DNA from: Porphyra umbilicalis | Lineage: Eukaryota > Rhodophyta > Bangiophyceae > Bangiales > Bangiaceae | Assembly: GCA_002049455.2 (NCBI GenBank) | Contig: KV918785.1 | Span: 1-64,000 of the forward strand | Direction: 5' to 3' | Length of the DNA: 64,000 nucleotides | In this document: positions 6,293-50,146 of the stretch, piece by piece | Position numbering within the stretch: position 1 is the first letter of the stretch | How the letters are laid out: each line of letters opens with the position of its first letter | Notes under the pieces: generated by a model | What the model was told of the DNA's origin: nothing | Seen by the model: the letters and a program-made list of their open reading frames with translations, nothing else | The model's database searches: none | Position numbers and translations under genes: made by a program

Positions 6293-6332
<40 letters not shown>

Positions 6333-10187: not shown

Positions 10188-10246
<59 letters not shown>

Positions 10247-10598: not shown

Positions 10599-10716
10599 CG
10601 GCGGTCGCGCGGGCGGCGGTCGCGCGGGCGGCGGTCGCGTGGGCGGCGGCCGCGCGGGCGGCGGCCGCGCGGGCGGCGGCCGCGCGGGCAGCGGTCGCGC
10701 GGGCGGCGGCCGCACG
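10599..10716. repeat. 15-bp minisatellite
   Basis: About eight copies of GGCGGTCGCGCGGGC or close variants, open in several frames on both strands. Confidence 0.85.
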
Positions 10717-11376: not shown

Positions 11377-11448
11377 GGCGGGCGGCGGGCGGCGGGCGGC
11401 GGGCGGCGGGCGGCGGGCGGCGGGCGGCGGGCGGCGGGCGGCGGGCGG
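11377..11448. repeat. 7-bp simple repeat (CGGCGGG)n
   Basis: About ten almost perfect copies of CGGCGGG. Marks the end of the very GC-rich left flank. Confidence 0.9.
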
Positions 11449-26845: not shown

Positions 26846-27088
26846 TATGACGGCCCAAAAATAGCCCTCCTCACATTTTCTAATCCCTTAATGCATCTTG
26901 TGGTGGCCTCGCGGGATCGCCATTCTTTTGGAGCTTGAACGGTAGCGCCACTTCAAACAGGCCTGTTTGGAGACGCCCCGAGTCGGTTGGCCAACCCCTG
27001 GTTCCCTGATCGGACCACGAAAGCCAATGGAAAGCGTGACCCGTGGCTTGCAGACAGTTGCGAGACGATCTGGCAGTCATGGAGATTC

Positions 27089-27117
27089 TATGGCAGATCC
27101 CTGTTCTTTGGACCCCC
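27089..27117 (+). repeat. 29-nt sequence repeated inverted at 50054-50082 (left copy)
   Basis: Identical over 29 nt, as reverse complement, to 50054-50082; contains GGCAGATCCCTGTTCTTTGG. Similarity stops abruptly on both sides. The pair lies either side of the 23-kb block with the zinc-finger and E(z)-like genes. Confidence 0.85.
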
Positions 27118-27686
27118 CCCGGCAGCACGTTTGCGGGAAACGCGTTTGACCCCCCGCCGTTGTACCGTCAGGGCAGGCACGTTTTGGGATTCGGCCTCGT
27201 TTGCTGACAGCGCGTGCAGTCACGAGGCGAAAGGTCGCGACATCAGAGACCGAGCACGCGACGCCGAGAGATCAATCGCGGAGAGACCGGACATCTGTGG
27301 ACCGATGTTCTAACAGTGTGGCTCAAGGCCGCTAATCGTGCCTCGCGGGCCGCTCAGATTGGAAACGTGCTCCACTTCGTGTCGCTGCCCCCTAATCGGG
27401 CCAAAGAATCCTTAAGCGAGACCCCTGACAGAGGGCCTCAGGCGAGGTCCTCGGATTTCATCCGCTTTCCGGTCCCGAATGTGGGGCTTCTGACCCTGGA
27501 TTTTTAGAAACGTGCTCCACTTCGTGTTCCTCGCTGTGGGGTGCAAACGGTATAAGCCGGTGTGCAAAGCTTAGAAAGGTGGGCTACAAGGAGATTACAT
27601 TGTCGTGTGATTGCCGGTGCCTGGATCTGCGGGCCTGCGATTGGACCAGCAGTCACCGAGGGTCGTCAAAAAACGGAGCGGGGCAC

Positions 27687-29825
27687 ATGTGTTGGCGCCC
27701 AGGCCGTCCCGATCTGGGCTTTCTTGCGCACAGCGATGTGGTCTGTGCATGTGATTGCGGTAAGTCCCACACGTACTGTAGCCCCTGCCAAAGCGCCTCC
27801 TCCGCCGCACTCTCTCTCCTTGCGTCCTCTTCCACTGCGCTCCATTCGTGTTTCTCAACGTCTTTCTTTCGTGCAGGCCGAGGACCTGTGCTGCCGTGCG
27901 GACGGGCAAGCTGCCCAGCGCATTGTATACGCTCGTCGATCCCTGTCTGCGTGAGCCGCCACGTCGTGCACGGTGGTGTCGTGAGGAGCGCGGCGTCTCT
28001 GACTCGCCTTCTTTTTTGTGGGCTGTGTTTCGTCGGGGTTCGGCTTGGCCAGTACGTTCGAGTGTCTCGGGAAACGACGGGGCGGTGCCTTCTATGCAAC
28101 TTTGACTTGGGTGTCGACGCCAATGGGGTGCAGCGCACGGGGTCACACACGCAGCGCACGTGCGGCCTCAAATCCATGCCTTGTCGTCACGCACTTCCAG
28201 TCGGACACCCGTTTCGCAAAGACGGGGCCTGCTTCGAGGTGGACTTTTGCCACCACACGAAGTGCACCAAGTGCTCCGTCGTTGGGCACCATGTCAGCAC
28301 TCTCGTGTTGTCGCCGGATCGCTTCCAGATGGACAACAAGACGGGCAACGTGACGCGTCGGCGGACGGCGCCACCGCTTAGCAGCTCTGATTACGTTTGC
28401 CCCCTCGTCACTGACGCTGTGGTCGCTGAGTGGGTGCGTGCGCACCATGCGGCTTGCTGGGCGGACTGGCGGCAGTCGCAGGAGGCGGCTGCGGCAGCTG
28501 CCGACATCGTCGCCAACATCCATCAATCGGGGCTGCGTACGGTCGCGGCGGCCGACTTAATGGCGGGGACCGGCATCGTCGCCGCGTCAAACATCGCGGA
28601 TAACTGGCCAGTTTTTCAGGCGATGGCGATTGCGCTGGACGATCCCGACCAGACGGCCGTCGGGGCGGCGCTGGCCGCCGCTGCTTCGGCCACGACGGCA
28701 GCGGCGGGGGGTGGATTGGGGCGTGGGGTTCGACGGGGGAGGGGTGCTGCGGGCAGCGGCGGGCGCGGTCAGGCCGCTCTTGGTCACGGTGATGGCCGTG
28801 GTCGCACTCCTCGTGGTGGTGGCTCCGGGGGGGCCGCTGAATCCGGGTCGACCATCGGATCCGCTGGCCGGGGCATGGGATCTACTGCGGGCTCTGTTGG
28901 CATGGCTGCTGCAGCCGGGACTGGGACGAGCGGTGGTGTTCGTGCTGCCGAGGAGACACCCGGCAGGCGCAATGTTCGAGCGCGCTCGATGAATTCGTTA
29001 GATTTGCCCTCGGGCGTTGATCGACGGGCATCGACGACGGGGACTGGTGGAGGAGGGGGGAGGCGGGTAGGCTCGCGCGGGGCGTCTCCGCCCACGGATA
29101 ATGCGGCGCGTGCAGGTGGCCCGAGTGACCTCCCAGCCCGGTCCGCCGCGCTGATGGCGCGTGCGCACGTGACACTGATGCAGTCGAACGCCCTATGTGC
29201 CGCCGACTCCGTGTCGCGCCTGACGGCCACTGGCTCTGGGTCGACGGAGCCAGTGGCGGTAGTGGCGGCAGCGCGGGCTCGCGCGTCGGATGCCGGTGGT
29301 CCCGCAGCGGCCGTGGCTGTTGTGGCAGCCCCTCTTCACTTGACGTGGAAGACGGGGGAGCGGGAGAAGTTTTCGGCGGTTTCGGTGTTTGACTGCCCGG
29401 CCGTGAGTCGGATGACGTCGACGCAGCTGGCGTCCGCGGCGTTCAAGGGCGCCCTGAAGTCCCACGCCATCAACTCTCCCACCGTGGAGGCCAAGTTTAT
29501 CCTCGGTGCGGAGGACCACTTTCTTATCGGACTGAGCATCACGTGCGGGGGGGTGTCGCCTGCGGACGTGGCGGAGCAGCTTGTCTCGCGCCGTGTCGAC
29601 CGTTCAAACGCCAACCTCATGCTGCTCGTTGCCTCGTGGTGCCAGAAGTTCGTCACAGAGAACATGGTGGCGGCGGCGGTGCTCGGTCATGCAGGTGTGG
29701 ATGGGGGGGTAGACGGGGAGTCGGACGGTGACGCGGAGGCCCGGGACGACACGGCTGGTGCAGCCGATCCGTCCAACAGTCGTGGTCGCGGACACTGCGG
29801 GGGTGCTGTGAGCGATGATGAATAG
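27687..29825 (+). CDS. zinc-finger gene A, unknown function, two exons
   Basis: Not a known family. Exon 1 starts at ATG 27687. A consensus intron (GTAAGT at 27760 to CGTGCAG at 27876, 117 nt, with a pyrimidine tract) leads into exon 2, which ends at TAG 29825, about 673 residues in all. The N-terminal third has a Cys/His cluster: CLLCNFDLG, then His and Cys, CRHALPVGHPF, and CTKCSVVGHH, followed by DYVCP. The same arrangement is in gene B at 41.4 kb. The middle (about 28650-29300) is Gly/Ala/Arg-rich and disordered with RGG-like motifs. The C-terminal region (KTGEREKFSAVSVFDCP to GHAG) looks folded. It ends in an acidic tail. A tandem array starts about 170 bp after the stop. Role unknown; nucleic-acid binding is a guess from composition. 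Confidence 0.65.
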   Translation: MCWRPGRPDLGFLAHSDVVCACDCGKSHTYCSPCQSASSAALSLLASSSTALHSCFSTSFFRAGRGPVLPCGRASCPAHCIRSSIPVCVSRHVVHGGVVRSAASLTRLLFCGLCFVGVRLGQYVRVSRETTGRCLLCNFDLGVDANGVQRTGSHTQRTCGLKSMPCRHALPVGHPFRKDGACFEVDFCHHTKCTKCSVVGHHVSTLVLSPDRFQMDNKTGNVTRRRTAPPLSSSDYVCPLVTDAVVAEWVRAHHAACWADWRQSQEAAAAAADIVANIHQSGLRTVAAADLMAGTGIVAASNIADNWPVFQAMAIALDDPDQTAVGAALAAAASATTAAAGGGLGRGVRRGRGAAGSGGRGQAALGHGDGRGRTPRGGGSGGAAESGSTIGSAGRGMGSTAGSVGMAAAAGTGTSGGVRAAEETPGRRNVRARSMNSLDLPSGVDRRASTTGTGGGGGRRVGSRGASPPTDNAARAGGPSDLPARSAALMARAHVTLMQSNALCAADSVSRLTATGSGSTEPVAVVAAARARASDAGGPAAAVAVVAAPLHLTWKTGEREKFSAVSVFDCPAVSRMTSTQLASAAFKGALKSHAINSPTVEAKFILGAEDHFLIGLSITCGGVSPADVAEQLVSRRVDRSNANLMLLVASWCQKFVTENMVAAAVLGHAGVDGGVDGESDGDAEARDDTAGAADPSNSRGRGHCGGAVSDDE

Positions 29826-29994: not shown

Positions 29995-30925
29995 CCCGCG
30001 GCGCCTGCACGGCAACACGGAGGCGCAGTTGGTGCACGTCCCGTCGTCGGCGGCGGCGTTGGGCATCACGACCGACGCGCAGGTGGTACAGATGCAGGTG
30101 GGGACGGTGCGCGTGACGGCGTTGCCGGTGCCGACGCGGAGCAGGGAGCGCGTTGCGCGCGAGGTTGGTCGTGGCGTCGCCGGAGCCGACGTGGAGCAGG
30201 GAGCGCGCCGCGCAAGCCGTTGGTCGTGGCGGCAGTTGTGTACGTCGTTGAAACGACGAGCCAGTTGGTGCACGTCCCATCGTCGGCGACGGCGTCGGGT
30301 ATCACGACCGTCGCGCAGTTGGTTCAGATGCAGGTGGGGACGTTGCGCGTGACGGCGTTGCAGGTGCCGACGCGGAGCAGGGAGCGCGTAGTGCGAGCCG
30401 CTGGTCGTGGCGTTGCCGGCGCCGACGTGGAGCAGGGAGCGCGTCGCGCAAGCCGTTGGTCGTGGCGGCAGTTGTGTACGTCATTGAAGCGACGAGCCAG
30501 TTGGTGCACGTCCAATCGTCGGCGACTACGTCGGGCGTCACGACCGTCGCGCAGGTGGTACAGTTGCAGGTGGCGACGTTGCGCGTGACGGCGTTGCAGG
30601 TGCCGACGCAGAGCAGAAAGCGCGCCGCGCAAGCAGTTGGTCGTCGCGTCGCCGGCGCCGACGCGGAGCAGGGAGCGCGTAGCGCGAGCCGCTTGTCGTG
30701 GCGTTGCCGGCGCCGACGTGGAGCAGGGAACGCGTCGCGCAAGCCGTTGGTCGTGGCCGCAGTTGTGTACGTCGTTGAAACGACGAGCCAGTTGGTGCAC
30801 GTCCCATCGTCGGCGACTGCGTCAGGCGTCACGACCGTCGCGCAGGTGGTACAGTTGCAGGTGGCGACGTTGCGCGTGACGGCGTTGCCGCTGCCGACGC
30901 GGAACAGGGAGCACGTCGCGCGGGC
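29995..30925. repeat. tandem array 1, four units of 236-291 bp
   Basis: The block CAGTTGGTGCACGTCC recurs at 30026, 30262, 30498 and 30789 (spacing 236, 236, 291). Units contain internal repeats of GACGCGGAGCAGGGAGCGCG. Three plus and three minus frames stay open over long stretches, but unit lengths are not multiples of three, so no single repeat protein is implied. Confidence 0.85.
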
Positions 30926-31507: not shown

Positions 31508-34500
31508 ATGGATGCAGCGCGTCGTGGCTCTGACGAGGCATTCGTGGACGAGTGGCCAAACGCGGAAGGAGCCCTGTCTGATGTCGACTCGGACGCTGAA
31601 GAAGGTGAGCGCGCTGCTGCTGTCGCCGGCGATGCACGCAGCATCCATCGTGTTGCTTATCGTCTGTACGGGCGAGCAGGGCGCCGCGCGCGTCAGCGTC
31701 GCAGCGCGGAAGTTCGTATTGCTATTGCTGTGAACCGTCAAACGGTATTGAGGTGTGCGCGGTATGTGGCGGCGGCGGGCGCGGGCGCCGACGTTCGCTT
31801 GGCACCCATTGAGGCTGCGATTGATCCGTGTGGTGTGAGGTCGGACGCCTCGGTCGTTCTTCGCGATGGCGCCGTATTGCTGGTGGAGGCAAAAGGAGTG
31901 TCCCAAGGTGGCCCGAGTGGCCGTGGCGGCTCGTGTGGTGGCACTGCTGGCGGGGGAAGTCCTGCTGGGAACGATGCAGTGCTTGGAGCAGCCGTCGTGG
32001 AGCTGGATGCCAGGAAGAGCAACCCCCCCCGCAAGAGGCAGCGCACGATATTGGAGTTCATGCGAGCGTCACGAGCCTCGCCGCTTGTCCCGCGCGAAGT
32101 GAGAGCGGGTTGCCACGGCGTCCCCCAACCGTCTCGCTCGTCGCCCCCTACCCTGCCCACCGCACACGGCCTCGGCTCTGCTGCTGCCGCGCGTGAAGCT
32201 GGTGGCATTGACGCCGCTGATGCTGCTCGTGTGGCTTCCCGGTCGACAAGCGAGGCGACCACTGCCGCAACTGACGCCCCAGAGCGGGCGGTGCCAGTTG
32301 TGATATTGCCCGCGGTTGAGCGTCTCCCGACGGCGTCAGCGTATACGTCGATGCGGCGGTCGTGGCGACGGGTCGAGGGCGTTGCCTCCTTCAGGCACAC
32401 TCCTTACCTCGGAGACACCGACGACGCGCATGCTGCGGCGGCGCCCATTATGCGCAAGAACGAGTGGACGGCCCCCAACTGTAACCGTGACGGCAGTGAC
32501 GCGTCAGACGATGAGTTTACCCACCTCGGAAATCGATACCATTCGCTTGAAGAGCGGACCTTCCGGATGACGCAGCGCGCCGGCGTGTACGCAGTTGTTC
32601 AAGCGCTTGGTGACTCGCCGGCGGTGGTGCACACCTTGAGCGAGGTGCTGGGGGAGACGCTGCCTCACATGACGCACGTGGTTGAGCTCGTCCAGCGGAG
32701 GGGGGATGACCACCGCCGCGCCGCGTCAGAGCGCGAGGCGCAGGCCACCCGCCAAGGCGCTCTGGAGCAGCTGACGGGTGGCGCCAGCCTCGCGGGGGTG
32801 CTCGCTAGCGGCGCTGTACGGGAGCAGGGCGGTCGTGTGGCTGGTTCTGCGTTTCTAAGCCGCGGGAGCGGCGCTCCCGAGGCCCGAGTGCGAGGCGCAC
32901 CGGCCGCTTTTGGGGCCTCCACGTCTGCGGCTGCGGCGTCAGCGGCCGACGTCGCAGCCGCCCGCCTCCCCCTTTTGAGTCGTGTGTGGGCTCTGCGGCA
33001 AGCCGAGCTAGTTCGGCAGTCGCACACGGAGAGCGACGCGATGCGCAACGACGCCGCTGCTGTTCGGACGCTACGCACAGTCGTTCGAGCTCATGGCGGC
33101 GCAGATGCTGCCGCGCACCTGCCGTCTGTCGGCACTCTGGTCGGTGCTGGCCACGCGGCGCCAACCGGCGCTAGTGTTGCCGGACCCGCTATAGCGGTGG
33201 CGGGCGAAGTGCAGCTGCCGCAAAGGGGACATTTGAGTCGTCTCTTGTGCCGTGTCTGTCTGCGGTGTGCGTGTCGACTGCACGGCGCACGTGACGGCGA
33301 CCCGCTAGCTGTGCCGCTTCCCCCTCGCCCGGTTGGTCTTCCTCGTGGCGCCGACGGTGCAGACGCGGACGGGCTAGAGTGGTCTCCCCGCCGCGCTTGG
33401 GGCGACTCGGCAGTCGCCCCAGTTGCCCCACGCGCCGGCGCAGGCGCACGGTTCTCGGCTTACTTCGACTGGGCGGACGCGACGGGTCTGCATGTTGGTC
33501 CGAGTGTCGAGTGACGTGTTTGATCGGCCGTCGCCAACGACGCGCGGCGAACAGATGTTGGGCCAGATACAGGGTGCCGCGGCCGCCCGACGGTTTCCAC
33601 TGTTGTGGCTTACAGCGTTGCTGTTGCCCCACGCGATGGCGACGTCGCCGGGCGTTTCGCGGGTGGCACCAGGCGCGCCACTGCCGGCGGGACTGGGTCA
33701 CCCGCTTTTAGCAACGCTGTCGGCGCTTCTGTTGGCGATGGTTCGGCCGTTGTAGTTGGTACCTCCTCGGCGAAGTGCGACGCCGATGCTCCTCGGCCTC
33801 CAACCACTCATGCGGAGGATGTGGAAGTCGCACGTGTCGATGACGTCTGGCAGCGGCCGTCGTTGTCTTCTCTGTGGCGTGGGCGGTGCGCCCGAGTCCA
33901 CCACTCGGCAATCGCCCAGGCGGCAAGTGGGTGCTTTGAGTGCCGTCTCGACCCCCGCGTGCGAGCTGTTATGCGTTCCGTGCCTCGTGCTGTGGGCGGT
34001 TGGCGAGTCGACCAGGTGGGGCTGCTGCAGATGGGAGCTGACATTGTCGCTGTGCAGGACACCTGCCGCCTTGCTCAATTTGTGGCTGGCAAGACGTGTC
34101 GCCGCGTGGCTGAGTTTTTTGAGGGTCCGGGGCTCTCTCTGCTCTGCGCGTCACCGGTGGAGCAGCCGTTGCAGGACCCTGGCCTGGAAGCTGTCGGGTG
34201 TTCTGAGGCGACGGCGGGGAGTTGCGCCGGCGGGTTGGACGAGGACAGCGGGGGGTCGGCAACGGCGTCGCAGTGCTCCCCTGCCCCGCATGGCTCTCTT
34301 TGCAGCTCTCGGGCCTCCCGTCAATCGGGCACGACCAACAGCCAGGACGACCCCTGCGCGCCGGACGAAGTGCACGAGCTTGCGCCCTGCTTTCACAGCG
34401 GGGAGTGTACAGAGGAGCGGTGTCGGTGCGCGCGCACCGGGTTGGCGTGCGAGAAGACGTGTGGGTGCGCTCAGTATCGCTGAACGGCGGGCTCGCCGTC

Positions 34501-35245
34501 TTCGGCAGGCTTGGGCTCTGCACACTCAATCGGCGAGAGTGTCCTAGCGCCTGGGTCTCGGTTGTGCGGTCGTCGCATCTGGTGTGCATGTGTGCCGCCG
34601 TCGAGGTGCGACACGGATGAGTGCCCGTGTTTGGCGGTCGACAGGGAGAGCGACCCCGATGCCTGCGACACTTGCGGTGCGCATTGGCATCCAAGCACTG
34701 GGGTCGACGGTGCGCCTCACTCACCGGATGACGGCGTGCACCGTGCCGGTGCGCAGGTACTACGAGGAGCGGGGTTGCTGATTGCGGCTGACGTTGAGAG
34801 CGGGGGTGTCGCTGCCGGAGGCGTTGTAGGCCGCCGTCGCTGGCGCAACGTCCAACTCCAAGTCGGTGCCCGCGTTCGTTGCGTGCTTGGTCGCTCGGAC
34901 GCTCACGGATTCGGTGTCTTCGCTGCTGAAGGTGCGGCGCAAGGCGACTTTGTTGGTGAGTACGTCGGTGAACTCATCTCAAGTGCGGAGGCGGCAGCGC
35001 GTGGGCGCGTGTACGACGCCAAGGGGGTGAGCTTCCTGTACTCCATCACCAAGACGATGAACACAGACGCTACACGGGTGGGCAACCGGCTGAAATTCAT
35101 GAACTACCGCACGACGGAGCATGCCAACGTCGAGGCGAAGCTGTTGAGCGTGTGTGGCGAGATGAGAGTCGGGTTGTTTGCCAAGGCGCCGCTGTGTGCC
35201 GGGGAGGAGTTGTTCTTTGATTATGGATACGAGGTGCCAGGGTGA
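31508..35245 (+). pseudogene. E(z): Enhancer-of-zeste [E(z)]-like Polycomb methyltransferase homologue with three in-frame TGA
   Basis: Homologue of the catalytic PRC2 subunit that methylates histone H3 Lys27. A single frame of 1245 codons from ATG 31508 carries, in order: an acidic and Arg-rich N-terminus; a region (about residues 300-400) like the linker preceding the second SANT domain of plant E(z), with EERTFRMTQRAGVYAVVQAL; a SANT2-like block at about 832-870 (GGWRVDQVGLLQMGADI, KTCRRVAEFF); a Cys-rich pre-SET CXC region in two halves (PCFHSGECTEERCRC, CEKTCGC, then CACVPPSRCDTDECPC, DACDTCGA); and a C-terminal SET domain (GFGVFAAEG, DFVGEYVGELI, GRVYDAKGVSFLYS, RVGLFAKAPLCAGEELFFDY). 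TGA codons lie at 33512, 33521 and 34481. In the SET core the invariant Asn-His-Ser is Asn-Tyr-Arg, and the Tyr of the KYMCSF-type motif is missing, so it is probably catalytically dead. GTGAGT at the last codon and a 66-nt GT..AG span over the third TGA leave some room for extra introns. The gene is flanked on both sides by tandem arrays. Confidence 0.85.
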
Positions 35246-36149: not shown

Positions 36150-39100
36150 CGGTGCTCTTGCGAGTCTTGCAAGTTGCAGTGGAGCTTTTGGTGGCGGCGG
36201 CGGCGGCGGTGCGCCTGGTTGACATCTTGGCACGGCTGTTGTGTCCGTGCTCGCGGTGCTGCTGGCGGTGCTCCTGCGAGTACAAGTGCCGGCTGTCGTG
36301 GTGCACTTGCGCGTCGTGCACGTTGCAGTGGAGCTCGTGGTGGCGGAGGCGGAGGCGGTGTGCCTGGTGGACATCTTGGCGCGGCTGTTGTGGCCGTGCA
36401 CGCGGTGCTGCTGGCGGTGCTGCTGCGGGTACAAGTGCCGGCTGTCGTGGTGCTCTTGCGCGCCGTGCACGTTGCAGTGGAGCTTGTGGTGGCGGCGTCG
36501 GAGGCGGTATGCCTGGTGGACATCTTGGCGCGACTGTTGTGGCCGTGCATGCGGTGCTGCTGGCGGTGCTGCTGCGGGTGCAAGTGCTTGCTGTTGTGGT
36601 GCTCTTGCACGTCGTGCACGTTGCAGTGGAGCTGGTGGTGGCGGCGGCGAAGGCGGTGTGCCTGGTTGACATCATGGCACGGCTGTTGTGGCCGTGCTCG
36701 CGGTGCTGCTGGCGAAGCTGCTACGGGTAGAGGTTCCGGCTGTCGTGCTGCTCATGCGCGTCGTGCACGTTGCAGTGGAGTGTGTGGTGGCGGCGGCGGA
36801 GGCGGCGTGCCTGGTGAAACTTTTGGCACGGCTGTTGTGGCCGTGCTCGCGGTGCTGCTGGCGGTGCTGCTGCTGGTGCAAGTGCTGGCTCTCGTGGTGC
36901 TCATGCGCATCCTGCACGTTGCAGTGGAGCTCGTGGTGGCGGAGGCGGAGGCGGTGTGCCTGGTGGACATCTTGTCACGGCCGTTGTGGCCGTGCTCGCG
37001 GTGCTGCTGGCGGTGCTGCTTCGGGTACAAGTGCCGGCTGTCGTGGTGCTCTTGCGCGTCGTGCACGTTGCAGTGGAGCTTGTGGTGGCGGCGGCGGAGG
37101 CGGTATGCCTGGTGGACATCTTGGCACGGCTGTTGTGGCTGAGCCCGCGGTGCTGCTGGCGGTGCTGCTGCGGGTACAAGTGCCGGCTGTCGTGGTGCAC
37201 TTGCGCGTCGTGCACGTTGCAGTGGAGCTTGTGGTGGCGGCGGCGGAGGCGGTGTGCCTGGTGGACATCTTGGCGCGGCTGTTGTGGCCGTGCACGCGGT
37301 GCTGCTGGTGGTGCTGCTGCGGGTACAAGTGCCGGCTGTCGTGGTGCTCTTGCGCGTCGTGCACGTTGCAGTGGAGCTTGTGGTGGCGGCGTCGGAGGCG
37401 GTATGCCTGGTGGACATCTTGGCGCGACTGTTGTGGCCGTGCATGCGGTGCTGCTGGCGGTGCTGCTGCGGGTGCAAGTGCTTGCTGTCGTGGTGCTCTT
37501 GCACGTCGTGCACGTTGCAGTGGAGCTGGTGGTGGCGGCGGCGAAGGCGGTGTGCCTGGTTGACATCATGGCACGGCTGTTGTGGCCGTGCTCGCGGTGC
37601 TGCTGGCGAAGCTGCTACGGGTAGAGGTTCCGGCTGTCGTGGTGGTCATGCGCGTCGTGCACGTTGCAGTGGAGTGTGTGGTGGCGGCGGCGGAGGCGGC
37701 GTGCCTGGTGAAACATTTGGCACGGCTGTTGTGGCCGTGCTCGCGGTGCTGCTGGCGGTGCTGCTGCTGGTGCAAGTGCTGGCTCTCGTGGTGCTCATGC
37801 GCATCCTGCACGTTGCAGTGGAGCTCGTGGTGGCGGAGGCGGAGGCGGTGTGCCTGGTGGACATCTTGTCACGGCCGTTGTGGCCGTGCTCTCGGTGCTG
37901 CTGGCGGTGCTGCTGCGGGTACAAGTGCCGGCTGTCGTGGTGCTCTTGCGCGTCGTGCACGTTGCAGTGGAGCTTGTGGTGGCGGCGGCGGAGGCGGTAT
38001 GCCTGGTGGACATCTTGGCGCGGCTGTTGTGGCCGTGCATGCGGTGCTGCTGGCGGTGCTGCTGCTGGTGCAAGTGCTGGCTCTCGTGGTGCTCATGCGC
38101 ATCCTGCACGTTGCAGTGGAGCTTGTGGTGGCGGTGGCGGAGGCGGTGTGCCTGGTGGACATCTTGGCACGGCTGTTGTGGCTGTGCCCGCGGTGCTGCT
38201 GGCGGTGCTGCTGCGGGTACAAGTGCCGGCTGTCGTGGTGCACTTGCGCGTCGTGCACGTTGCAGTGGAGCTTGTGGTGGCGGCGGCGGAGGCGGTGTGC
38301 CTGGTGGACATCTGGTCACGGCTGTTGTGGCCGTGCTCGCGGTGCTGCTGGCGGTGCTGCTGCGGGTACAAGTGCCGGCTGTCGTGGTGCTCTTGCGCGT
38401 CGTGCACGTTGCAGTGGAGCTTGTGGTGGCGGCGTCGGAGGCGGTATGCCTGGTGGACATCTTGGCGCGGCTGTTGTGGCCGTGCATGCGGCGCTGCTGG
38501 CGGTGCTGCTGCGGGTGCAAGGTCTTGCTGTCGTGGCGCTCTTGCACGTCGTGCACGTTGCAGTGGAGCTGGTGGTGGCGGCGGCGAAGGCAGTGTGCCT
38601 GGTTGACATCTTGGCACGGCTGTTGTGGCCGTGCTCGCGGTGCTGCTGGCGAAGCTGCTACGGGTAGAGGTTCCGGCTGTCGTGCTGCTCATGCGCGTCG
38701 TGCACGTTGCAGTGGAGTGTGTGGTGGCGGCGGCGGAGGCGGCGTGCCTGGTGAAACTCATGGCACGGCTGTTGTGGCCGTGCTCGCGGTGCTGCTGGCG
38801 GTGCTGCTGCGGGAGAAAGTGCTGCCTGTCTTGCTGCGCTTGCGCGTCGTGCACGTTGCAGTGGAGCGTGTGGTGGCGGCGGCGGAGGCGGTGTGCCTGG
38901 TTGACATCTTGGCACGGCTGTTGTGGCCGTGCTCGCGGTGCTGCTGGCGATGCTGCTGCTGGTGCAGGTGCTGGCTCTCGTGGTGCTCATGCGCATCCTG
39001 CACGTTGCAGTGGAGCTTGTGGTGGCGGTGGCGGAGGCGGTGTGCCTGGTGGACATCTTGGCACGGCTGTTGTGGCTGTGCTCGCGGTGCTGCTGGCGGT

Positions 39101-39301
39101 GCTGCTGCGGGTACAAGTGCCGGCTGTCGTGGTGCACTTGCGCGTCGTGCACGTTGCAGTGGAGCTTGTGGTGGCGGCGGCGGAGGCGGTGTGCCTGGTG
39201 GACATCTTGGCACGGCTGTTGTGGCCGTGCACGCGGTGCTGCTGGCGGTGCTGCTGCGGGTGCAAGTGCTGGCTGTCGTGGTGCTCTTGCGCGCCGTGAA
39301 A
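36150..39301. repeat. 149-bp satellite, about 21 monomers with higher-order structure
   Basis: The block TGCCTGGT(G/T)GACATC recurs every 149 bp: 36361, 36510, 36659, 36808, 36957, 37106, and 36212 to 39192 is exactly 20 x 149. A variant monomer with GGCGAAGCTGCTACGGGTAG occurs at 36711, 37605 and 38648, that is 6 and 7 monomers apart, so monomers are arranged in a higher-order repeat of about 894 and 1043 bp. Because 149 is not a multiple of three, all three plus frames rotate through the same hydrophobic, Cys/Trp-rich and Gly/Ala-rich readings; none is taken as a protein. Confidence 0.95.
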
Positions 39302-39397: not shown

Positions 39398-40432
39398 ATG
39401 TACAGCGTCGATATGCGTCTTGTAGCTGTGACGGTGTTGCGGAATGGGGTGCGCAAGAGCGTCATTTATAAGAACATTGGCGTCAAGCGGTCAACTCTCA
39501 AGCGCTGGTTCAAGTACTACCGGGAGCACGGATCAGTATGAAGGGACCCTTTGCGGCAGAACCAGCACCACAACAGCTGCTGGTTTGACAGGACGCTCAT
39601 GACGGCCATGGTGCACCTGGTCCGAGAGCACCCGCGGGCTCTGTTACGGGAACACTCCGAGATGCTCAAGCTGATGCGCAACAACCCGAGCGGCGAGTTT
39701 ATTGCTCTGCGTGCATCGAAAAGTATGATCGACCGGTACTTGCACAAGTTGGGCTTCACACGCAAGCGCTCGCTTCGTCTCTTTCGTGAGTCGTCGGCCG
39801 CCGTGCGGCGCGTCCACGCCCTCGTCCGGGACAACATCCCCGAGTGCTGCATCGTGTCAGTCGACGAGACACACACAGACGGTGGCGATGTCTTCCGATT
39901 GTACGGGCGGGCTTTGGCTCGCGAGCGCGACAACGTCCACGGTCGGGACCCCCGGTCGGTTACGCGGACAAGCACGACGATGGCGGTGTCGAGTGATGGC
40001 CGCATCTTGGGCTTCCAGTCCGTGGTGGTGGGGAGAGGCGCGCTGACGTCGGCGGACTGGCGACTGTTCCTGCAACTGCTCATCTCCAAACTGGGTGTGT
40101 ATGTTCCGGGACGCCCATGGAGCCAGCAGTCGAACAACTGCGTCGTTCTGTTCGACAATGCGCCCATCCACAACGCTGGTGGGGACACGTTCCTCGGAAA
40201 CAACGGCGTCCCCTTTTTGCGTCTACCACCGTACAGTCCCGACCTGCAACCAATCGAGGGCGTCTTCAATGACTTGAAGATTGTGATCCGGAACTTGGTG
40301 CATGTGATGCCGGACTTGTTGGACGACCCGCATTTGTTGCAGGCGACAGCGGCAAGCAAGCTCTCTCGACGCCAGATCATCGGGCAGTTCGATCGGGTTC
40401 GCAAGGTCATTGAGTCGATCATCGCCGAATAA
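39398..40432 (+). mobile_element. Tc1/mariner-IS630-type DDE transposase, one in-frame TGA
   Basis: DNA transposase that cuts and joins element ends at TA sites. The frame from ATG 39398 encodes a helix-turn-helix (VIYKNIGVKRSTLKRWFKYY), a TGA at 39539-39541, a second DNA-binding segment (SKSMIDRYLHKLGFTRKRS) and a complete catalytic core: first Asp in SVDETHTD (about residue 156), second in VVLFDNAPIH (about 253), Glu in PPYSPDLQPIEGVFNDLK (about 287), with 33 residues between the second Asp and Glu. Total 344 codons, normal for the family. The only defect seen is the TGA, one C-to-T change from CGA (Arg). It starts about 100 bp after the satellite ends. Terminal inverted repeats were not found by eye. 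Confidence 0.85.
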
Positions 40433-41133: not shown

Positions 41134-41891
41134 GACTGCGCCATCCCCTCCTGCGGTGTTGAGAATCACCATTCGGAGCACGCGATCTGTGAGTTGGTGC
41201 CAAGCCCCATCCTGCACGACAAGAGACAGCTCCCCACTCATGCGCTCACCACGCGTGCTCCACTGTCTGGTGTGGTCGCTCATTCTGTCTCACAGTCTTC
41301 CGAGCGTCACGGTATGTTTGTGTGCGGGATGCCCGATTGCCAATGGTTCTGAATGTCGAGTATTGTTTGAAGTTCTGTTTTTTGTTCATCCCGTGGATTG
41401 CTGCAGCGCGGTATACCGCCTGTGTCGCTGGGTGCAGCGTGCATGACATGATGGAATGGGTGTTGACGACCATCGTTCTGCCGTTCTTCGCTGATGTCCA
41501 CGTCCCATTCTGTCACCCAGACTCCTCCAATTCAGACATGAGGACATGCGAAACCTGCTGGGGGGTGCTGCCCATCGGCCACCAGCATCATAACGCATCT
41601 ACGTGCCCGCACAACGATTTTGCTTGTCGTCATAGTCTTCCTGTCGATGATGCGTTTTATCTTCCTCTGTCTGTTCATTTCCATGGTGATCTTAACGGCG
41701 GGGGTGTGTGTAACAGGATTTGCTCAGTATGCAAGGGGGTCGGCCACGAGCCGTGCTCTCAGGTACCCCGGGCTGGTCGGTGGGACCTGCGCAATGGACA
41801 TGTGGTCGCTTCTCGCCCTCAGCGTCCGCTGGACGCCAATGACTTTGCTTGTCCCGCTCACCATTTCGTGCCTGAACTGCCTGTCTCATGA
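41134..41891 (+). CDS. zinc-finger gene B, paralogue of gene A
   Basis: The second exon (41407-41891, after an intron from GTATGT 41312 to GATTGCTGCAG 41406) has the same Cys/His pattern as gene A: CETCWGVLPIGHQ, CPHNDFACRHSLPVDDAF, CSVCKGVGHE, then GRWDLRNGHVVASRPQRPL and DFACP. Gene A has CRHALPV, CTKCSVVGH and DYVCP at matching places. The frame that joins correctly upstream contains DCAIPSCGVENHHSEHAIC, another Cys/His cluster, but no ATG was located, so the 5' end is unresolved. Much shorter than gene A: it lacks the Gly/Arg-rich middle and the C-terminal region. Stop is TGA at 41891. A tandem array starts about 270 bp downstream. Function unknown. Confidence 0.5.
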
Positions 41892-42156
41892 AGCGACGTT
41901 GCTCGTCGTACTCACGCCATACCACCCTCTTTCGTTGCTTTACTGTTCCAGCATGACATGGCGCTGGTAGTCGAGTACAGCCCTCGGCAGTTTTTCTTTC
42001 AACCACGGCTACATCCGAGTCCTTCATCACAGCGTCACCGAAACCCTTCTGTTCCACTACGGATGCTTACCCGTCCTCCAGAGCAAAGCGGCCCTCACTC
42101 CCCGGCCACCACGTCCACCTTCACGACCGCCGCAGCCACGCAGACAAAAAAACGTA

Positions 42157-43230
42157 AGTGTACGCCCCACGCAAGAGGCAACATGCACGCCGTCCCAAAC
42201 GACGAACCGCACCACCCCCGCCACCACGTCTGGCTGCACGTCCGCCACCGCCACGCCGACATGAACCACAAACTGCACGCCTCACGCAAGCGGCAACATG
42301 CACGCAGTCCCACACGTCAAACCGCACCACCCGCGCCACCGCCACGCCGACAAGAAGCACAAACTGCCCGCCCCACGCTAGCGGCAACATGCATGCCGTC
42401 CCAAACGCCGAACCGCACCACCCCCGTCACCGCCAGGCCGACAAGAAGCACAAAATGCACGCCCCACGCAAGCGGCAACATGCACGCCGTCCCACAAGTC
42501 GAACCACACCACCTTCGCCACCGCCACGCCGACAAGAAGCACAAAATGCACGCCCCCCGCAAGCGGCAACATGCACGCCGTCCCAAACGCCGAACCGCAC
42601 CACCCGCGCCACCGCCACGCCGACAAGAACCACCAGCTGCACGCCTCACGCAAGCGGCGACATGCACGCCGTCCCACACGTCGAACCGCACCACCCCCGC
42701 CACCGCCACGCCAACAAGAACCACCAGCTGCACGCCCCACGCAAGCGGCAACTTGCACGCCGTCCCACACGACAAGCCGCACCACCCCCGCCACCGCCTC
42801 CAGCTCGTCGACCGCCGCAGCTTCCGCCACCACCACGCCGACAAGGTGCACCAGCTGCACACCCCACGCAAGGTACAACTTGAGCACTATCCCACACGAC
42901 ATGCTGCACCGCCCCCGCCACCGCGTCCAGCTCCACGATCGCCTCAGCGACGCCGATAAAAAGCGCAAACTGCACGCAAAAACGAGCGGCAACTTGAACA
43001 CCGTCCCTCACTATAAACCGCACCGCCCTCGCCACCACGTCGAGCTCCACGTCCCCCGAAACCACGCCTGCAAAAAGAACCAGCTGCACGTCGCGCGCAA
43101 GCGGCAACGTGGACACCGTCCCTCACGACAAGCCGCACCGCCCTCGCCACCACGCCCGGCTCCACGTCCGCTGCCGTCACGCCACCACAAAGCATCAACG
43201 GCACGCCCCACGCAGGCCGCGACTTGGACG
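42157..43230. repeat. tandem array 3, 91-bp units
   Basis: Units carry AAGCGGCAACATGCACGCCG; successive copies at 42470 and 42561 are 91 bp apart. Later units contain insertions and diverge to the right. Since 91 is one more than a multiple of three, plus frames cycle through Thr/Ser/Pro-rich, His/Pro-rich and Arg/Pro-rich readings. Same family as the arrays at 46.5 and 48.6 kb. Confidence 0.9.
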
Positions 43231-45371
43231 CCGCCCCACTGATCAGACTGTATTTCTTTCGATACTCAGGCCACCCTCACGACGGCCACTGTCACGTCAA
43301 GAATGACCACGAACTGCACGCTGTATGCCGTCGGCATCGTGCACAACTGGCCTCGGCGAACATCGGCACCGCCACCACAATGGGAGGTGGCCTTGATGTG
43401 GCGCTTGCCTCCTGCCGACGTATCTAAATCGTCACGACAAAGAATAAAGCAGGGATTTTACACGAAAACGAGACGTCAAACGGTCATCTTAAGGATGCGC
43501 GGGACAATACGGAATGGCCCTGTCAGCACCCAGACGCAGTAGCGACATGGGAGGCTGCATGATGAATGGGGAGCGACACACGGGTAACACAACGTGAATG
43601 AAGTGAGATGGTTCGCAGTCGAACAGTCCGCGTCGCCCACGACAACAACATGTGCCGCATGCATCCCACGACGGCGTAAAAAGAAGACCATAGAGATTCT
43701 GCAGCACACGGCTAGACGAGAAAGCGAAGAGAGACATGACCCGCTGAGTACAGGCAAAGTATTGAAAAGACCCATATTCTGAGGCGTACCGCATAGCGCT
43801 TGCAAGCACACGACGTAGGCGTCCGGGAACCCGGTGAGAGCGACGGTCATGGTGACCGGGGATGTGGAGAGGGTCACGACGGTGACGAAGCGCTCGACGG
43901 TGGTGGGGACGACAGCCCGACGGTAGCGCCGTTCGCCACCCCAACCTGCGCGGACTACTAGCGGTTTGTGTCTAGACCAATCAGGAGAGCGCTTCCACGA
44001 AAGACACACTGCTGGCCACGCGCTCGTCTGCTGGAAGGCGATCTCCCTGCTCCACAGGCTACCTCCCTCAGAAAATTTGACAGAGTTTCACCAAACGACG
44101 ATTGATGCGTCGCTCTGGGAGCCAAACACGCAGACACGGCGGGCGACGGAGGCGCCCGAGCCGTGGATCAGCGTTAGGAATGTGAAAACCCTCTGAGAAG
44201 TCCTCTGACAATTCTCCGCACACGCACATATTCGACTTGGCGACAGATTGTCGTCCGGCCCGTCGACGACGAAGCTTCAAAAAGCAGACGACATGAAGCA
44301 CAGTCTGAACTGGTGAGGGGTCGTCCGCCAGTCGTCTCCTCGCTCCACTTGATGCGGCTTTCATGTCCCGCTCTTTGACGATGTCGCTCCACTGTGGAGC
44401 GAGAAAGAAAATGAGATCTGCCTCACGTCGTTCTTTGCCAGCGGTGCGCAGCTGTTCCGAAAACAGCGGACTGCGAAGCTGAGATAGGACAACCGGAATA
44501 TGGCGACAAGCACAGCCTGGCGTGCCTTTCTCGCGCGACAGCCCACACGCCATAGCAGGGGGTTTTACACTTGGCGCGCTCGGTCGTGGCGCACATCCGA
44601 TCGATCGTTGGCCGTGCAGGATGGAGGATGAAACAGTCGAACATCATTTCTTGACAGCAGTCGGATCGGCAGAGTACATATGTGAGTGGTATTTGATGGC
44701 GGTACGTGTAATGGAGCCGGAACCCCTGTAGACGGTCATGACGAACGTGCCGTACTCTCTCTCGTTCCTGCGGGGCGCTGCTGCGGCGGCCGCTCCCGAC
44801 CGGGCCTCGGACGATCGTCGTAGGGCTGAAATGCGTCGGACGCAACAACAGAGCTGCACTCGGATGCGATGCGTCCGGCGACCAAGGACGGCACCATGCC
44901 ATAGCCGTGGTACCCCGGATTGTTTCCCCGCTTCGCCCACGGCGGCTCCGCGCGTCGACTTGGACGCATTGGCTTGGCACGTCTGATGTACTGGAGACGC
45001 AGTCGCGGACTACACTGGGACGCCGGGGTACTGAGTATCATGCTTACAAAACTCGCTCCTGACGCCATCGCCTCATTGGCCAACCCCGGAGAAAGACGTT
45101 GTGTAATGCATCATTTCTGTCCTCAGAATGCAGAAAATCAAAGTAACTCCCAATTTGAGACGTAATCGTTTCGGGCCACAAAATGGGTCACAGTGTGCAA
45201 CACCGGCAGCAGCGCGGCCGCCGAGGGTCACGACTTTCTGTCGGGTGCGTTTCCAGCAATGCCTGTGGCCCTGTCTCCGTCGCACATCTCGTCGGTGGTC
45301 TTCCTTCCTGGTGTTGCAGCCGCTTGCTGCGCTGCTGCACCTTGCCCGCCCTTTCTGTGTTTTTTCACAAC
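43231..45371. other. no supported gene
   Basis: A 177-codon minus-strand frame (43476-44009) has ordinary composition but no recognised motif. The remainder shows only short frames. The segment 45200-45371 is probably the 5' region of the following zinc-finger gene. Confidence 0.35.
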
Positions 45372-46315
45372 ATGGCCGCCGCACCACCCCCCCCCCCCTA
45401 CCCCCGCGGCCTGAGCCTTCTGGCTTTTACAAGTGTGAGACGTGCAACATCCTGATGACCGGGGCGGCAAGCTGGAATGAGCACGTCCGCGGGGCGCCAC
45501 ACAAGAAGAGGGCGTTCCGCGCCGCCGCGACGCACGGGCCCGGCAACGCCAGCCACTCTACTCGTTGGACGTGCCCGACGTGCCTGGCGAGCAACGACGC
45601 CCCGACAAGCCTCATCAGTCACGTGAGTGGCGCTGGCCACGGACGCGCCGTGGCTGTTCTGAAGGACAGCGGGCCGCGCGCCGAGCTCCATGTTCTGTTG
45701 CCTCGCCTGCGTGCAGCGGTGAGAGAATTCAGGCGCGCTGGAGACGACGATGCTCGTTTGGCAGACGTGCTCCGTGAAGCTGAACACGACGCCGGCATCC
45801 TTGCGCCTGCGGCCGCCGTTCGCGATGCGGGCCGCACCGCTCATTCCCACGCTCGCGCGTTCGCGGCCGGCCACAGCGGGTCTTCTGGCGCTGGTGGGTC
45901 TGCTGGTGGAGCTGGGGCCGGGCCACCTCCTGCTGACGCCCGCCGACACAAGCGCCGACGCGACGACGACGCGTATGCATCGGGGGCAGAGAAGCTCGCG
46001 GACGCTGCTCAAGCGGGGGGGGGACGGCTGCCGACCTCGTCTGATGACTCTGGCTCGTCCGGCGCTTCTCCGCAGTCGAATGGTGTTTGCGATAACGCTT
46101 GGGCGGATGGTTATTCGGCACGCACGAGACCGGGCGGCGCGTAGGCGTCACCGACGTCTGGGGCTGGCCGCAACCCGGTGGCGGTAGTGGTCCCACCGGG
46201 CGCCTGTGTTTGGTTTGAGTGTCCGCGGTGTGGCTGCCACTACCGCTCTGGCGACGACTACGTGGCGCATGTGTGCCAGCCGTACAAGGGGGAGGGAAAG
46301 GGCCGTGCTGAGTGA
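45372..46315 (+). pseudogene. three-finger C2H2 (U1/matrin-type) protein with in-frame TAG
   Basis: Likely nuclear RNA- or DNA-binding protein. ATG 45372 (MAAAPPPP) runs into a 12-nt C run after which the coding frame is shifted by one, as in other homopolymers here. The frame then gives finger 1 (FYKCETCNILM..HVRGAPHKK, the C-x2-C-x(n)-H-x5-H pattern of U1/matrin-type fingers), finger 2 (WTCPTCLASNDAP..HVSGAGH), a helical segment (LPRLRAAVREFRRAG), a disordered Gly/Ser/Ala part with a basic KRRRDDD stretch (possible nuclear signal), and TAG at 46142-46144. The same frame continues without a break past TAG into finger 3 (FECPRCGCHYRSGDDYVAHVC) and ends at TGA 46315. This supports one protein of about 314 residues broken by a recent stop. 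A tandem array follows within about 170 bp. Confidence 0.65.
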
Positions 46316-46479: not shown

Positions 46480-47650
46480 ACGCCCAACGCCATGCGAGCG
46501 GCATCTTGCAAGACGTCCCACATGACAAGCCGCACCACCCCCGCCACCGCCAGGCCGACGAAAAGCACCAGCTGCACACCCCACGCAAGCGCAACGAGCA
46601 CGCCGTCCAACACGACAATCCCCGCCACCCCCGCCACCGCTTCCAGCTCCACGTTGCCACAGCCACACAGACAAGAAGTACAAGCTGCACACCCCATGCG
46701 AGCGCCAACGTGCACGCCGTCGTACACGACAATCCCCACCTCCCCCGCCATCGCCAGGTCGACAAAAAGCACCAGCTGCGCACCCCACGCAAGCGGCAAC
46801 GCGCACGCCGTCCCAAATGACAAGCCGCACCACCCCAACCACCGCATCCAGCTCCACGTCGGCCACAGTCACACCGACAAGAAGCACCAGCTGCACGCCC
46901 CACGCAAGCGGCAACGTGCACGCCGTCCCGCACGACAAGCCGCACCACCCCCGCCACCGCGTCGAGCTCCACGTCGGCCAAAGCCACACCGACAAGAAGC
47001 ACCAGCTGCACACCCCACGCAGGCAGCAACGTGCACACCGTCGTACACGACAAGCCCCACCACCTTCGCCATCGCCAGGTCGACAAAAAGCACCAGCTGC
47101 ACACCCCACGCAACGGTAACGCGCACGCCGTCCCAAATGACAAGCTGCACCACCCCCGCCACGGCATCCAGCTCCACGTCGGCCAGAGCCACACCGACAA
47201 GAAGCACCAGCTGCACACCCCACGCAAGCAGCAACGTGCACGCCGTCGTACACGACAAGCCGCACCACCCCCGCCATCGCAAGGTCGACAAGAAGCACCA
47301 GCTGCACACCCCACGCCACGGCAACGAAGACGCCGTCCCACATGACAAGCCGCACCACCCCCGCCACCGCGTCCAGCTCCACGTCGGCCACAGCCACACA
47401 GCCAAGAAGCACCAGCTGCACACCCCACGCAAGCATCAATTTGCACGCCGTCGTACACGACAAGCCCCATCACCTGCGCCACCACGTCCAATTCCACGTC
47501 CGCTTCAGCCACGACGGCAAGAAGCATCAGCTGCACAACCCACGGCAAAAAGCACCAGCTGCACACCCCACGCAAGCGGCAACGTGCACGACGTCCCACA
47601 TGTCAAACCGCACCACCGCCGCCGCCACGTCCAACTCTACGTCAGGGGCT
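46480..47650. repeat. tandem array 4, alternating 91- and 114/115-bp units
   Basis: The block GACAA(G/A)AAGCACCAGCTGC recurs at 46876, 46991, 47082, 47196 and 47287, giving spacings 115, 91, 114, 91. The longer unit has an extra segment of about 24 bp (CCAGCTCCACGTCGGCCACA type). Same family as the 42-kb and 48-kb arrays. One plus frame reads Thr/Ser/Ala-rich throughout a unit but changes at each repeat. Confidence 0.9.
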
Positions 47651-48590
47651 GAGGTGGATAAAGTTGAGCTAGAGATATCCGCACAGTATACTCGGATTTA
47701 TCCACATTCCATGCCGTAGCTGCGTACTCATCATGTACTCTGTCCATGCACCCACGATTATAATGTGCCTTATTAATTCGTCGAAGGCAGGATATAATGT
47801 AATCAGAGTGGAGTTCCTTTGCCAGAGCTTATCCGAATCCCAGTATCGGTTGTGCTCTATACAAGTATTCTGGGGCAGCCCTTGGGACGGCGTAGGCGGA
47901 AAAGATGCCACTGTTGGCCACCAGATCAGAGATAGTGGCCGAAACGTCACAACTTTGAGGGCCGTGTGTCTGACACGCCCGAGCCGGATGCCCGGAGCAC
48001 GACGTGAAGGAGCTTGGGTATCAGCAGCATGTTCCTATCTTCTTCAGGTGAGGAGCAGCCATGCCCCCCTGCTTCCCGACACATACATTGCGCCGCTTTG
48101 CTGTCTCAACACCTTCTGGCGTCCCCCACTGTTGCACTCCGACGAGCACGCGTCGTGACCGGGGGAGAACTGCCCGCAGGACCAGAATCCTTTTGGTGTT
48201 CGAGGACGAGATTGCAGCCTTGGGTATACAAGCTGGGGTTATGCAGGCGCACCGAACCACTCTGACTTCCTAGGAAGTTGAGACCACCTAGAGCCATCCG
48301 TTGGCTGGCGCCACCGACTTTGTCGGCGACGTCGTCGGACAACCTCTCGTTCGCAAGTGCGCCGATCCTCATTTGTGCAGAACCGTCCTCAGACGGAATA
48401 TATTCATTCTAGGTACACAGAGTATAATCAAAATCGGGGCGAAAAAAAATCCGATTATAATGCTGATCCTTACTCAGACCGGTGCCGCCAGATCCAAATC
48501 CGGTTACATGACTTCATCAAAAACTCAAATCCGAGTGCATGTCAGCGGAAGTGGAATATATTCTGATTCCATAAAAAATGGCTGATTCAA
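47651..48590. other. spacer between arrays, no gene seen
   Basis: Unique, AT-richer sequence of near 50% GC separates two blocks of the same repeat family. Around 48380-48560 are short repeated motifs of the AAATCCGATTATAAT / CAAATCCGGTTAC type, but no element ends were identified. Confidence 0.4.
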
Positions 48591-49770
48591 AAGCCCCTGC
48601 TCTACGTCCGCCGCAGCCACGCCGGCAAGAAGCACCAGCTGCACACCCCACGCAAGCAGCAACGTGCACGCCGTCGTACACGACAAGCCCTATCACCTCC
48701 ACAACAACGTCCAACTCCACGTCGGCCTCAGCCACGACGGCAAGAAGCATCAGCTGCACAACCCACGGCAAGAAGCACCATCTGCACACCCCACGCAAGC
48801 GGCAACGTGCACGCCGTCCCACATGACACGCCGCACCACCCCCGCCACCACTTCCAGCTCCACGTCGGCCACAGTCACACCCACAAGAAGCACAAAGTGC
48901 ACGCCCCACGCAAGCGCAACGAACACGCCGTCCCACACGACAAACCGCACAACCCCCGCCACCATGTCCAGCGCCACGTCGGCCTGAGCCACGCCGACAA
49001 GAAGCACAAAGTGCACGCCCCACGCAAGCGCCAACGTGCACGCCGTCGTACACGACACGCCCCATCACCTCCGCCACCACGTCCAGCTCCACGTCCGCCA
49101 CAGTCACACCCACAAGAAGCACAAAGTGCGCGCCCCACGCAAGCGCAACGAGCACGCCGTCCCACACGACAAACCGCACCACCCCCGCCACCATGTCCAG
49201 TGCCACGTCGGCCACAGCCCTGCCGTCAAGAAGCACAAAGTGCACGCCCCACGCAAGCGGCAACGTGCACGCCGTCTCACACGACAAGCCGCACCACCCC
49301 CGCCATCACGACCAGCTCGTCGTCCGCGGCAACGTCGGCCGCCGTCACTCCGACAATAAGTACCAGCTGCACGCCGCGCGCATGCGGCAACTTGCACACC
49401 GTCCCTCTCGACAAGCCGCACCCTTCCCTCCACCACGTCCAGCTCCACGTCCGCCGCAGCCACGCCACCATTAAGAACGAATGGCACTCGGAACGCAAGC
49501 GGCAGCGTGCGAGCCGTGCCACACGACAAGCTGCACCAACCCCGACACCACGTCCAGCTCCACGTCCGCCGCCGCCACGCCGGCAAAAAGTACAAACTGC
49601 ACGCCTACGGCAAGCAGCAACTTGCATGCCGTGCCACACGGCAAGCTGCACCAACCCCGACACCACGTCCAGCTCAACGTCCGCCGCCGCCACGACGGCA
49701 AAAAGCACAAACTGCACGCCTACGGCAATCGGCAACTTGCATGCCGTCGTACACCTCCCGCGAGTTCTGC
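48591..49770. repeat. tandem array 5, same family as arrays 3 and 4
   Basis: Starts with GCCGGCAAGAAGCACCAGC and carries repeated CACGCAAGCGGCAACGTGCACG and CACCACGTCCAGCTCCACGTC-type blocks with spacing of about 90-120 bp, decaying to the right. No gene recognised directly before it. Confidence 0.85.
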
Positions 49771-50053
49771 CTCCACCTCACCACTGCCTCACCGTGGGCA
49801 AGTCGACGAGACAGGAACATGCGGCGTCGGGCCGCTTGTCAGAGGTCGCCAGAATTTCCCCACAAGATTCCGCCCCAATCGACGCCAAGTCCGTGCGTTC
49901 CGGGACATTCTCGAGAGATAGGACGAGGCTCCCGTGACCAATGTATGAATTCAACCGGTCCACAAAGCCGCGCCTGCGATTGGGCGGCTGGCCGTGTCAG
50001 GTGTTGACAGCACGTTTGAACACGTTTACTTCAGGTCCGACCTGGAAACGGAG

Positions 50054-50082
50054 GGGGGTCCAAAGAACAGGGATCTGCCATA
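50054..50082 (-). repeat. 29-nt sequence repeated inverted at 27089-27117 (right copy)
   Basis: Perfect reverse complement of 27089-27117. No matching target duplication was found outside the pair. Confidence 0.85.
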
Positions 50083-50146
50083 TGTAGTGCATCTGTGGGA
50101 ATACTAGCGTGCCACAAAAGAGGCCCACCGCCAGAGACTTCGAGGC

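Follow-up and report, generated by a model that had tools for sequence, protein, structure and literature searches.

An E(z)-type methyltransferase gene in an IS630/Tc1/mariner-type transposon of the red alga Porphyra umbilicalis

The gene and the transposon that holds it

The stretch analyzed here, 64,000 nucleotides of the Porphyra umbilicalis genome (assembly GCA_002049455.2, contig KV918785.1, forward-strand positions 1-64,000; hereafter the window), carries an E(z)-type methyltransferase gene on the plus strand at 31508-35245. The gene lies within a 23-kb DNA transposon of the cut-and-paste kind, of IS630/Tc1/mariner (ITm) type and decayed in this copy. It runs from ATG to stop in one frame, with three in-frame TGA codons in the window copy. 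Along that frame and strand follow an MCSS-like zinc site (CRVC...C.LH; 33173-33286), a SANT2-like segment (KTCRRVAEF; 34055-34165), a CXC domain (34364-34690), weak in its first half, and a SET domain (34907-35227) in which Tyr replaces the catalytic His. A preliminary description of this DNA had reported the SANT2-like block, both CXC halves and the SET domain in this order, which holds, with significance confined to the second CXC half (PF18264, 5.5e-5, over cut-off) and the SET domain (PF00856, 3e-14). A phmmer search with 34484-35245 returned EZH2 as the top match (4.3e-32), and EZH2 and EZH1 chains head the lists of solved relatives.

Support for the remaining segments comes from a sibling copy on C187 (C-numbers are contigs of the 83.8-Mb host genome, which was searched with the SET-CXC block of the window gene). 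Six stretches of the sibling protein are collinear with EZH2: the PYxGD region (-2.1 bits), the CRxC...C.LH zinc site (0.7 bits), the KTCRxVxEF SANT2-like block (4.2 bits), the first CXC half (0.6 bits), the second CXC half (19.3 bits) and SET (100.2 bits), the last two alone being significant. The zinc site and SANT2-like segment, neither significant alone, were transferred from C187 to the window. Since the four upstream stretches score between -2.1 and 4.2 bits, their identity rests on order and on block conservation between families; a Pfam scan of the N-terminal part of the element E(z) gave no match. The C187 frame is open, without an intron, across all three window stop positions. Given its three TGA codons and its Tyr in place of the catalytic His, the window copy is decayed. 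Its SET domain is 40-49% identical to that of the host E(z) in the matched pieces.

The transposon spans 27089-50082 on the plus strand (22,994 bp including the TA target-site duplication at each end), as delimited by terminal inverted repeats, sibling homology and joined flanks. The inverted repeats are a perfect 30-bp pair, 27089-27118 on the plus strand and 50053-50082 on the minus strand; the first 30 element bases recur inverted at the right end and match nowhere else in the window, even with three mismatches allowed. Ten sibling copies were compared, with up to 20 kb taken from each. Homology starts at 27089 in seven (C5, C482, C313, C187, C286, C92 and C2, the last one base earlier), and in C59, C113 and C177 the shared sequence begins further in within the stretch examined. 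Six different left flanks occur among these seven siblings and the window: one is common to C5, C482 and C313, which may therefore be duplicates of one insertion, whereas the window, C187, C286, C92 and C2 have one apiece. Similar ends occur as pairs at other places, among them C5:112911-132354, C187:68597-91889 and C113:11531-37831.

The target site was sought with 150 bases of each flank joined across one TA, a 302-base query that gave 45 rows (40 of 289 candidates scored). At least 41 places matched without interruption at 94-96% over 300-302 of the 302 bases, with one further match at 90% and one at 74%. The insertion thus took place at a TA within a dispersed repeat, and insertion at TA is the habit of ITm elements. 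The invaded repeat itself (window 26939-27088 and 50083-50232; at least 41 close copies in the genome) occurs at C183, C92, C607 and C45 as two copies no more than about 1 kb apart, in opposite orientation, as if within a further repeat element.

The transposase gene (39398-40432, plus strand) combines HTH_23 and DDE_3 and encodes 344 amino acids in siblings; the window copy has one stop in its N-terminal part. Its DDE_3 match falls in an open reading frame (ORF) at 39542-40432, on the strand of E(z) and 4.3 kb from it, in agreement with the DDE transposase that the earlier reading placed about 4 kb downstream. The 344-residue sibling protein matches PF13358 (9.6e-10) and PF13384 (5.8e-7), and the catalytic triad of the C5 transposase is D156, D253 and E287, with 33 residues from the second D to the E; ITm spacing classes include DD34E and DD34D. 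A DDE_3 transposase with an N-terminal helix-turn-helix, terminal inverted repeats and a TA target-site duplication are the ITm traits found. HarbingerS elements are defined by a Harbinger-type transposase; the window element, with a DDE_3/HTH_23 transposase and a TA target site, is not one of them. Between members of the family, the ratio of nonsynonymous to synonymous divergence (dN/dS) of the transposase lies at 0.4-0.6 in those pairs that have diverged more; it exceeds 1 in 3 of 21 pairs.

The zinc-finger genes noted earlier on the E(z) strand were recovered as three ORFs. ORF A (27687-29825) is zinc-knuckle-like, with a frame of 719 amino acids in C5 and C187 and, owing to a stop near its end, 712 in the window; it had no Pfam match over cut-off, and its within-family dN/dS is mostly 0.65-0.8. 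A second ORF, at 41193-41891, has a zinc-knuckle-like segment resembling ORF A. The third, a C2H2 (zf-met) ORF at 45128-46144 (395 amino acids in siblings C5, C482 and C313), has a dN/dS of 0.46-1.37, not clearly below 1, and may not be under selection. The tandem arrays described on both sides of E(z) are likewise present: one with units of about 55, 236 and 291 bp at 30026-30921, and a 149-bp array of 21 copies at 36151-39298, in a stretch between SET and transposase that varies in length among window-family copies. Further arrays lie at 42100-43237 (units of about 91 and 115 bp) and near the right end at 46543-49748, and these two, like the 149-bp array, are minisatellite-like. Three window-family copies are apparently interrupted by further insertions, with a SET-transposase gap of 18.5 kb in C59 and end-to-end lengths of 28 kb in C177 and 32 kb in C2. 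Stretches of about 75-86% G+C flank the repeat island (window 5000-12000 and 59000-63000). An Rfam search of the window gave no match, and no relative turned up among phage records and viral contigs.

Copies across the host genome and their link to transposases

The search for other copies of the E(z)-like protein, which the preliminary description had proposed, gave 115 rows that merged into 91 places, of which 88 are of the element type; C76, C352 and C261:33860 were set aside as host-like. A scored transposase lies within 25 kb of 66 of the 88 SET places, compared with 7.1 expected under uniform placement, and because 132 of 365 transposase candidates were scored, all transposase counts are lower bounds. 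An element SET lies within 25 kb of all 14 transposases at least 80% identical to that of the window, of 41 of the 65 that are 60-80% identical, of 8 of the 15 that are 49-60% identical and of none of the 37 below 49%. This gradation indicates that the association follows transposase lineage. Across the 66 pairs, SET identity and transposase identity to the window are correlated (Spearman 0.70).

The host also has Polycomb repressive complex 2 (PRC2) genes of its own. A canonical E(z) lies at C76:53900-56250, with MCSS-like, CXC and SET segments recognized by eye in one frame, and a Su(z)12 VEFS box, likewise read by eye, lies at C6:429693; on the C76 and C6 contigs there is no scored transposase and no element SET. 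The red-algal nature of the host shows in phycobilisome genes on C665, and its plastid allophycocyanins match solved chains that are partly red-algal. SET letters were read for 68 of the 88 element places, and the residue and tree counts given here cover these 68. In a tree of the 68 rows, a comparison also suggested beforehand, the host E(z) and EZH2 branch together, apart from the element SETs (97/98), which form a group of their own; these two are the sole outgroup rows, and both are long-branched. A spliced canonical gene, that is, a single copy whose introns remove the stops, is ruled out by the gene on C76 and by the C187 frame, which reads without an intron through the three stop positions.

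The preliminary description had left a choice between capture of a PRC2 catalytic gene by a mobile element and a Polycomb paralogue decaying in heterochromatin. Capture is borne out by the inverted repeats, the joined flanks, the left ends of siblings and the genome-wide co-occurrence of E(z) with transposase. As for the decaying paralogue, the stops of the window copy and its position among arrays would suit it, but the description fits only in that this one copy is decayed. Against a host paralogue in repeat-rich chromatin, as opposed to a mobile element, stand the inverted repeats, the TA insertion in a dispersed repeat, the 88 places, the transposase association and the separate host E(z). 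The joined-flank matches refute it for the window family, and we give it practically no credence.

Selection on the element E(z) and Su(z)12-like companions

The SET region of the element E(z) is free of stops over more than 220 amino acids in 48 of the 68 copies; in the NHS motif, the catalytic Asn is present in 66 of 68 and the His in 63 of 68. A catalytically dead decoy family was considered in view of the Tyr that the window copy has for this His, yet the His is kept in those 63 copies, and the idea was rejected. A 761-residue N-terminal query from the C187 protein (59 of 173 candidates scored) matched several families besides that of the window and the C50/C21 group, with open frames of up to 1,420 amino acids; several families have open E(z) frames of 1,200-1,420 amino acids, and the matches include C71 and C261 (frames of 1,225 amino acids), which belong to families with Su(z)12-like VEFS genes, described below. 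In the members examined of the C57, C346, C184 and C59b VEFS groups, SET frames span 357-1,138 amino acids: C57, C86, C117, C23, C346, C79, C174, C266, C184, C219, C273, C59b, C31, C387, C466 and C449.

Of 1,128 SET pairs compared, 926 were saturated or beyond the dS bins and 10 fell under dS 0.001. The median dN/dS is 0.163 for the 75 pairs with dS 0.8-1.5 and 0.202 for the 26 pairs with dS 0.4-0.8. To judge from these comparisons, the pattern is the one expected if selection keeps the gene in lineages that move and single copies decay. E(z) might instead be passive cargo that hitchhikes on transposons without benefiting them, as the near-neutral dN/dS among recent copies and the many copies with stops would allow. 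The values of about 0.16-0.2 among diverged copies, the long open frames and the retention of E(z) in families with different gene orders argue otherwise, and we regard passive carriage as very improbable.

A search of the genome with the VEFS model of Su(z)12 found 26 places over cut-off. All but two, C6 and C478, have an element SET no more than 25 kb away, 24 places against 1.4 expected. The VEFS boxes of loci L093 and L094 score 1.2e-11 and 4e-10; a candidate Zn_SUZ12 segment in L093 scores 21.4 bits, under the cut-off of 28, and none was found in the 251-residue ORF of L094. The gene at C478:12126-12476 is Su(z)12-like and stands apart both from element E(z) and from the presumed host gene on C6. 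The spacing of E(z) and VEFS recurs: 347-354 bp at C57, C86, C117, C23, C113 and C33, and 1807-1808 bp at C71, C261, C317 and C154. At C57, C86, C23, C113 and C33, E(z) and a transposase are about 8.4-8.6 kb apart. Among the 10 ORFs between VEFS and transposase at C57, a Pfam scan found only the VEFS box over cut-off.

With 24 of 26 VEFS boxes near element E(z), it appears that in some relatives of the window family E(z) is accompanied by Su(z)12, a second core subunit of PRC2. It could be objected that segmental duplication has multiplied E(z)-VEFS clusters of host genes, with transposases incidental, for these families are known from coordinates and a few loci. The recurring gaps, together with the transposase at 8.4-8.6 kb, tell against this account, which concerns the Su(z)12 part only and which we think rather improbable. 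In the SET tree the 18 VEFS-linked rows form two blocks. C71 and C317 pair with each other (100/99), and the other 16 belong to a clade that has 18 rows in all (100/99). The resulting 2 label changes are counted against window-family and host rows only, with 39 unlabelled rows uncounted, and either one gain followed by loss or two gains is a possible history of the Su(z)12 gene.

For EED, the Arabidopsis FIE protein as query gave 22 rows; a separate WD40 search scored 150 of 380 candidates, and divergent WD40 genes could escape it. Only C527 and C20 stand out, at 38-44% identity and best values of 1.2e-36 and 7.5e-36, and the other 18 rows are WD40 matches at 1.4e-8 or weaker. A full private PRC2 that includes EED is unsupported, only these two FIE-like loci standing out. 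The EED/ESC-like loci are C527:8898-9863 and C20:216890-218268, the latter about 20 kb from an element E(z). Separately, the genome has a multicopy WD40-repeat family with open frames of about 1,300-1,800 amino acids (C4, C11, C22, C45, C69, C78, C91, C101, C104, C193, C246, C343 and others), which was not seen to follow the E(z) places.

Possible roles of a transposon-borne PRC2 gene

The interpretation starts from what is observed directly, namely the ends and target site of the window element, its copy number, the link between E(z) and transposase, the catalytic residues and purifying selection between diverged copies. We consider it probable, short of firm, that an ancestor of this ITm transposon captured an E(z) gene whose product now restrains the element. 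In working copies, the element E(z) would be an active H3K27 methyltransferase that joins host EED and p55, with either host or element Su(z)12. The hybrid PRC2 would act on element chromatin, marking and damping the element copies, and the host would tolerate them. The element would thereby influence the chromatin that silences it, as the preliminary description had supposed for a captured gene. Two points favor self-directed marking: the active site is retained, and silencers that co-opt host PRC2, probably for self-repression, are reported from mariner elements (PMC4777549, in the part available).

The same genes could serve the opposite end. The E(z) of the element, alone or together with Su(z)12, might draw EED, p55 or targets away from host PRC2, or make a weaker mark, and so lift silencing by the host. 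PRC2 represses transposable elements in a red alga (PMC13353863, from an excerpt), epigenetic enzymes encoded by transposons are believed to work against silencing, as is proposed for the TET/JBP dioxygenases of fungal transposons (PMC12730594, likewise an excerpt), and the presence of E(z) and Su(z)12 with no expansion of EED would fit a scheme in which a host subunit is captured. The catalytic residues and the SET domain are conserved, however, although a decoy could do without its active site, and we judge competition, the main rival reading, unlikely. A broader proposal, that large Tc1/mariner-type families carry a portable E(z) plus Su(z)12 that docks on host EED and writes or blocks their own H3K27 methylation, as weapon or shield, is put forward tentatively, at somewhat less than even confidence.

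Several observations weigh against self-directed marking by a captured E(z). Much of the evidence would also be accounted for if the element competed with host PRC2, and the functional reading draws on sequence comparison. Inverted repeats and a TA site were established for the window family only; for the E(z)-VEFS families it is the repeated spacing that suggests a unit. Within the window family itself, the ORFs of the window element and nine siblings, in partial sequence, contain no VEFS gene (best profile E 2.8, best BLASTP E 3.7), and the FIE query of the genome found no EED expansion. The N-terminal E(z) query found nothing, among the candidates scored, in the C57/C86, C346/C174, C184/C219 and C59b/C31 VEFS groups. 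In 28 of the 68 copies, Arg or Lys occupies the third position of the NHS motif, and the 46 near-identical SET pairs have a near-neutral median dN/dS of 0.73. Of the 88 element SETs, 22 have no scored transposase within 25 kb; for at least 11 of them the contig ends less than 10 kb away (C154, C210, C278 and C412 were left out of the end check). Finally, at C50, C179, C21, C115, C138 and C41 the SET is 69-72% and the transposase 60-61% identical to those of the window. This group is out of line, so the two genes have not always traveled together, and it suggests that E(z) was exchanged between transposon lineages.

DNA transposons with a SET gene are already known. The HarbingerS and MuDR transposons of Phytophthora carry a SET histone methyltransferase gene (Kojima & Jurka 2014, as cited in the accessible part of PMC12730594), as the red-algal elements do. 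Those are oomycete Harbinger and MuDR families, whereas the red-algal ones are DDE_3/TA elements with an E(z)-type CXC-SET gene and, near some, Su(z)12-like genes. Fungal TET/JBP transposons offer another likeness, one epigenetic enzyme in several DNA transposon lineages with transfer between them, and differ in enzyme, mark and hosts (PMC12730594, same excerpt). SETMAR/Metnase also unites a SET methyltransferase with a mariner-type transposase (PMC8704517, in part); it is a single host gene fusion, whereas the red-algal SET and transposase are separate ORFs 4.3 kb apart in multicopy elements. Mos1 and other mariners are, like these elements, ITm transposons, and their expression is tied to PRC2; they use host PRC2 through DNA sites, and the available portion of PMC4777549 describes no PRC2 gene in them; the red-algal elements carry PRC2-type genes. 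ALP1 and ALP2 again link transposon proteins to PRC2 (PMC4671723 and PMC7282668, both as excerpts), there as domesticated transposases that join the host complex, here as PRC2-type genes inside transposons. With the canonical E(z) of PRC2, the element E(z) has CXC, SET and the catalytic residues in common. Among the top-ranking papers of an open-licence collection, from which most subscription papers are absent, none described a transposon with an E(z) or Su(z)12 gene.

The setting makes these genes of wider concern. In the red alga Cyanidioschyzon, knockout of E(z) leads to expression of transposable elements (PMC13353863, citing Hisanaga 2023, in the part available), and H3K27me3 is targeted to such elements (PMC8788455, from an excerpt). 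Repression of transposable elements by PRC2 may date from early in eukaryotes, and transposons that own PRC2-type genes make the choice between arms race and self-restraint directly testable. The numbers of E(z) and Su(z)12 genes counted in some algal genomes may be mostly those of transposons, which would distort comparative studies of Polycomb evolution.

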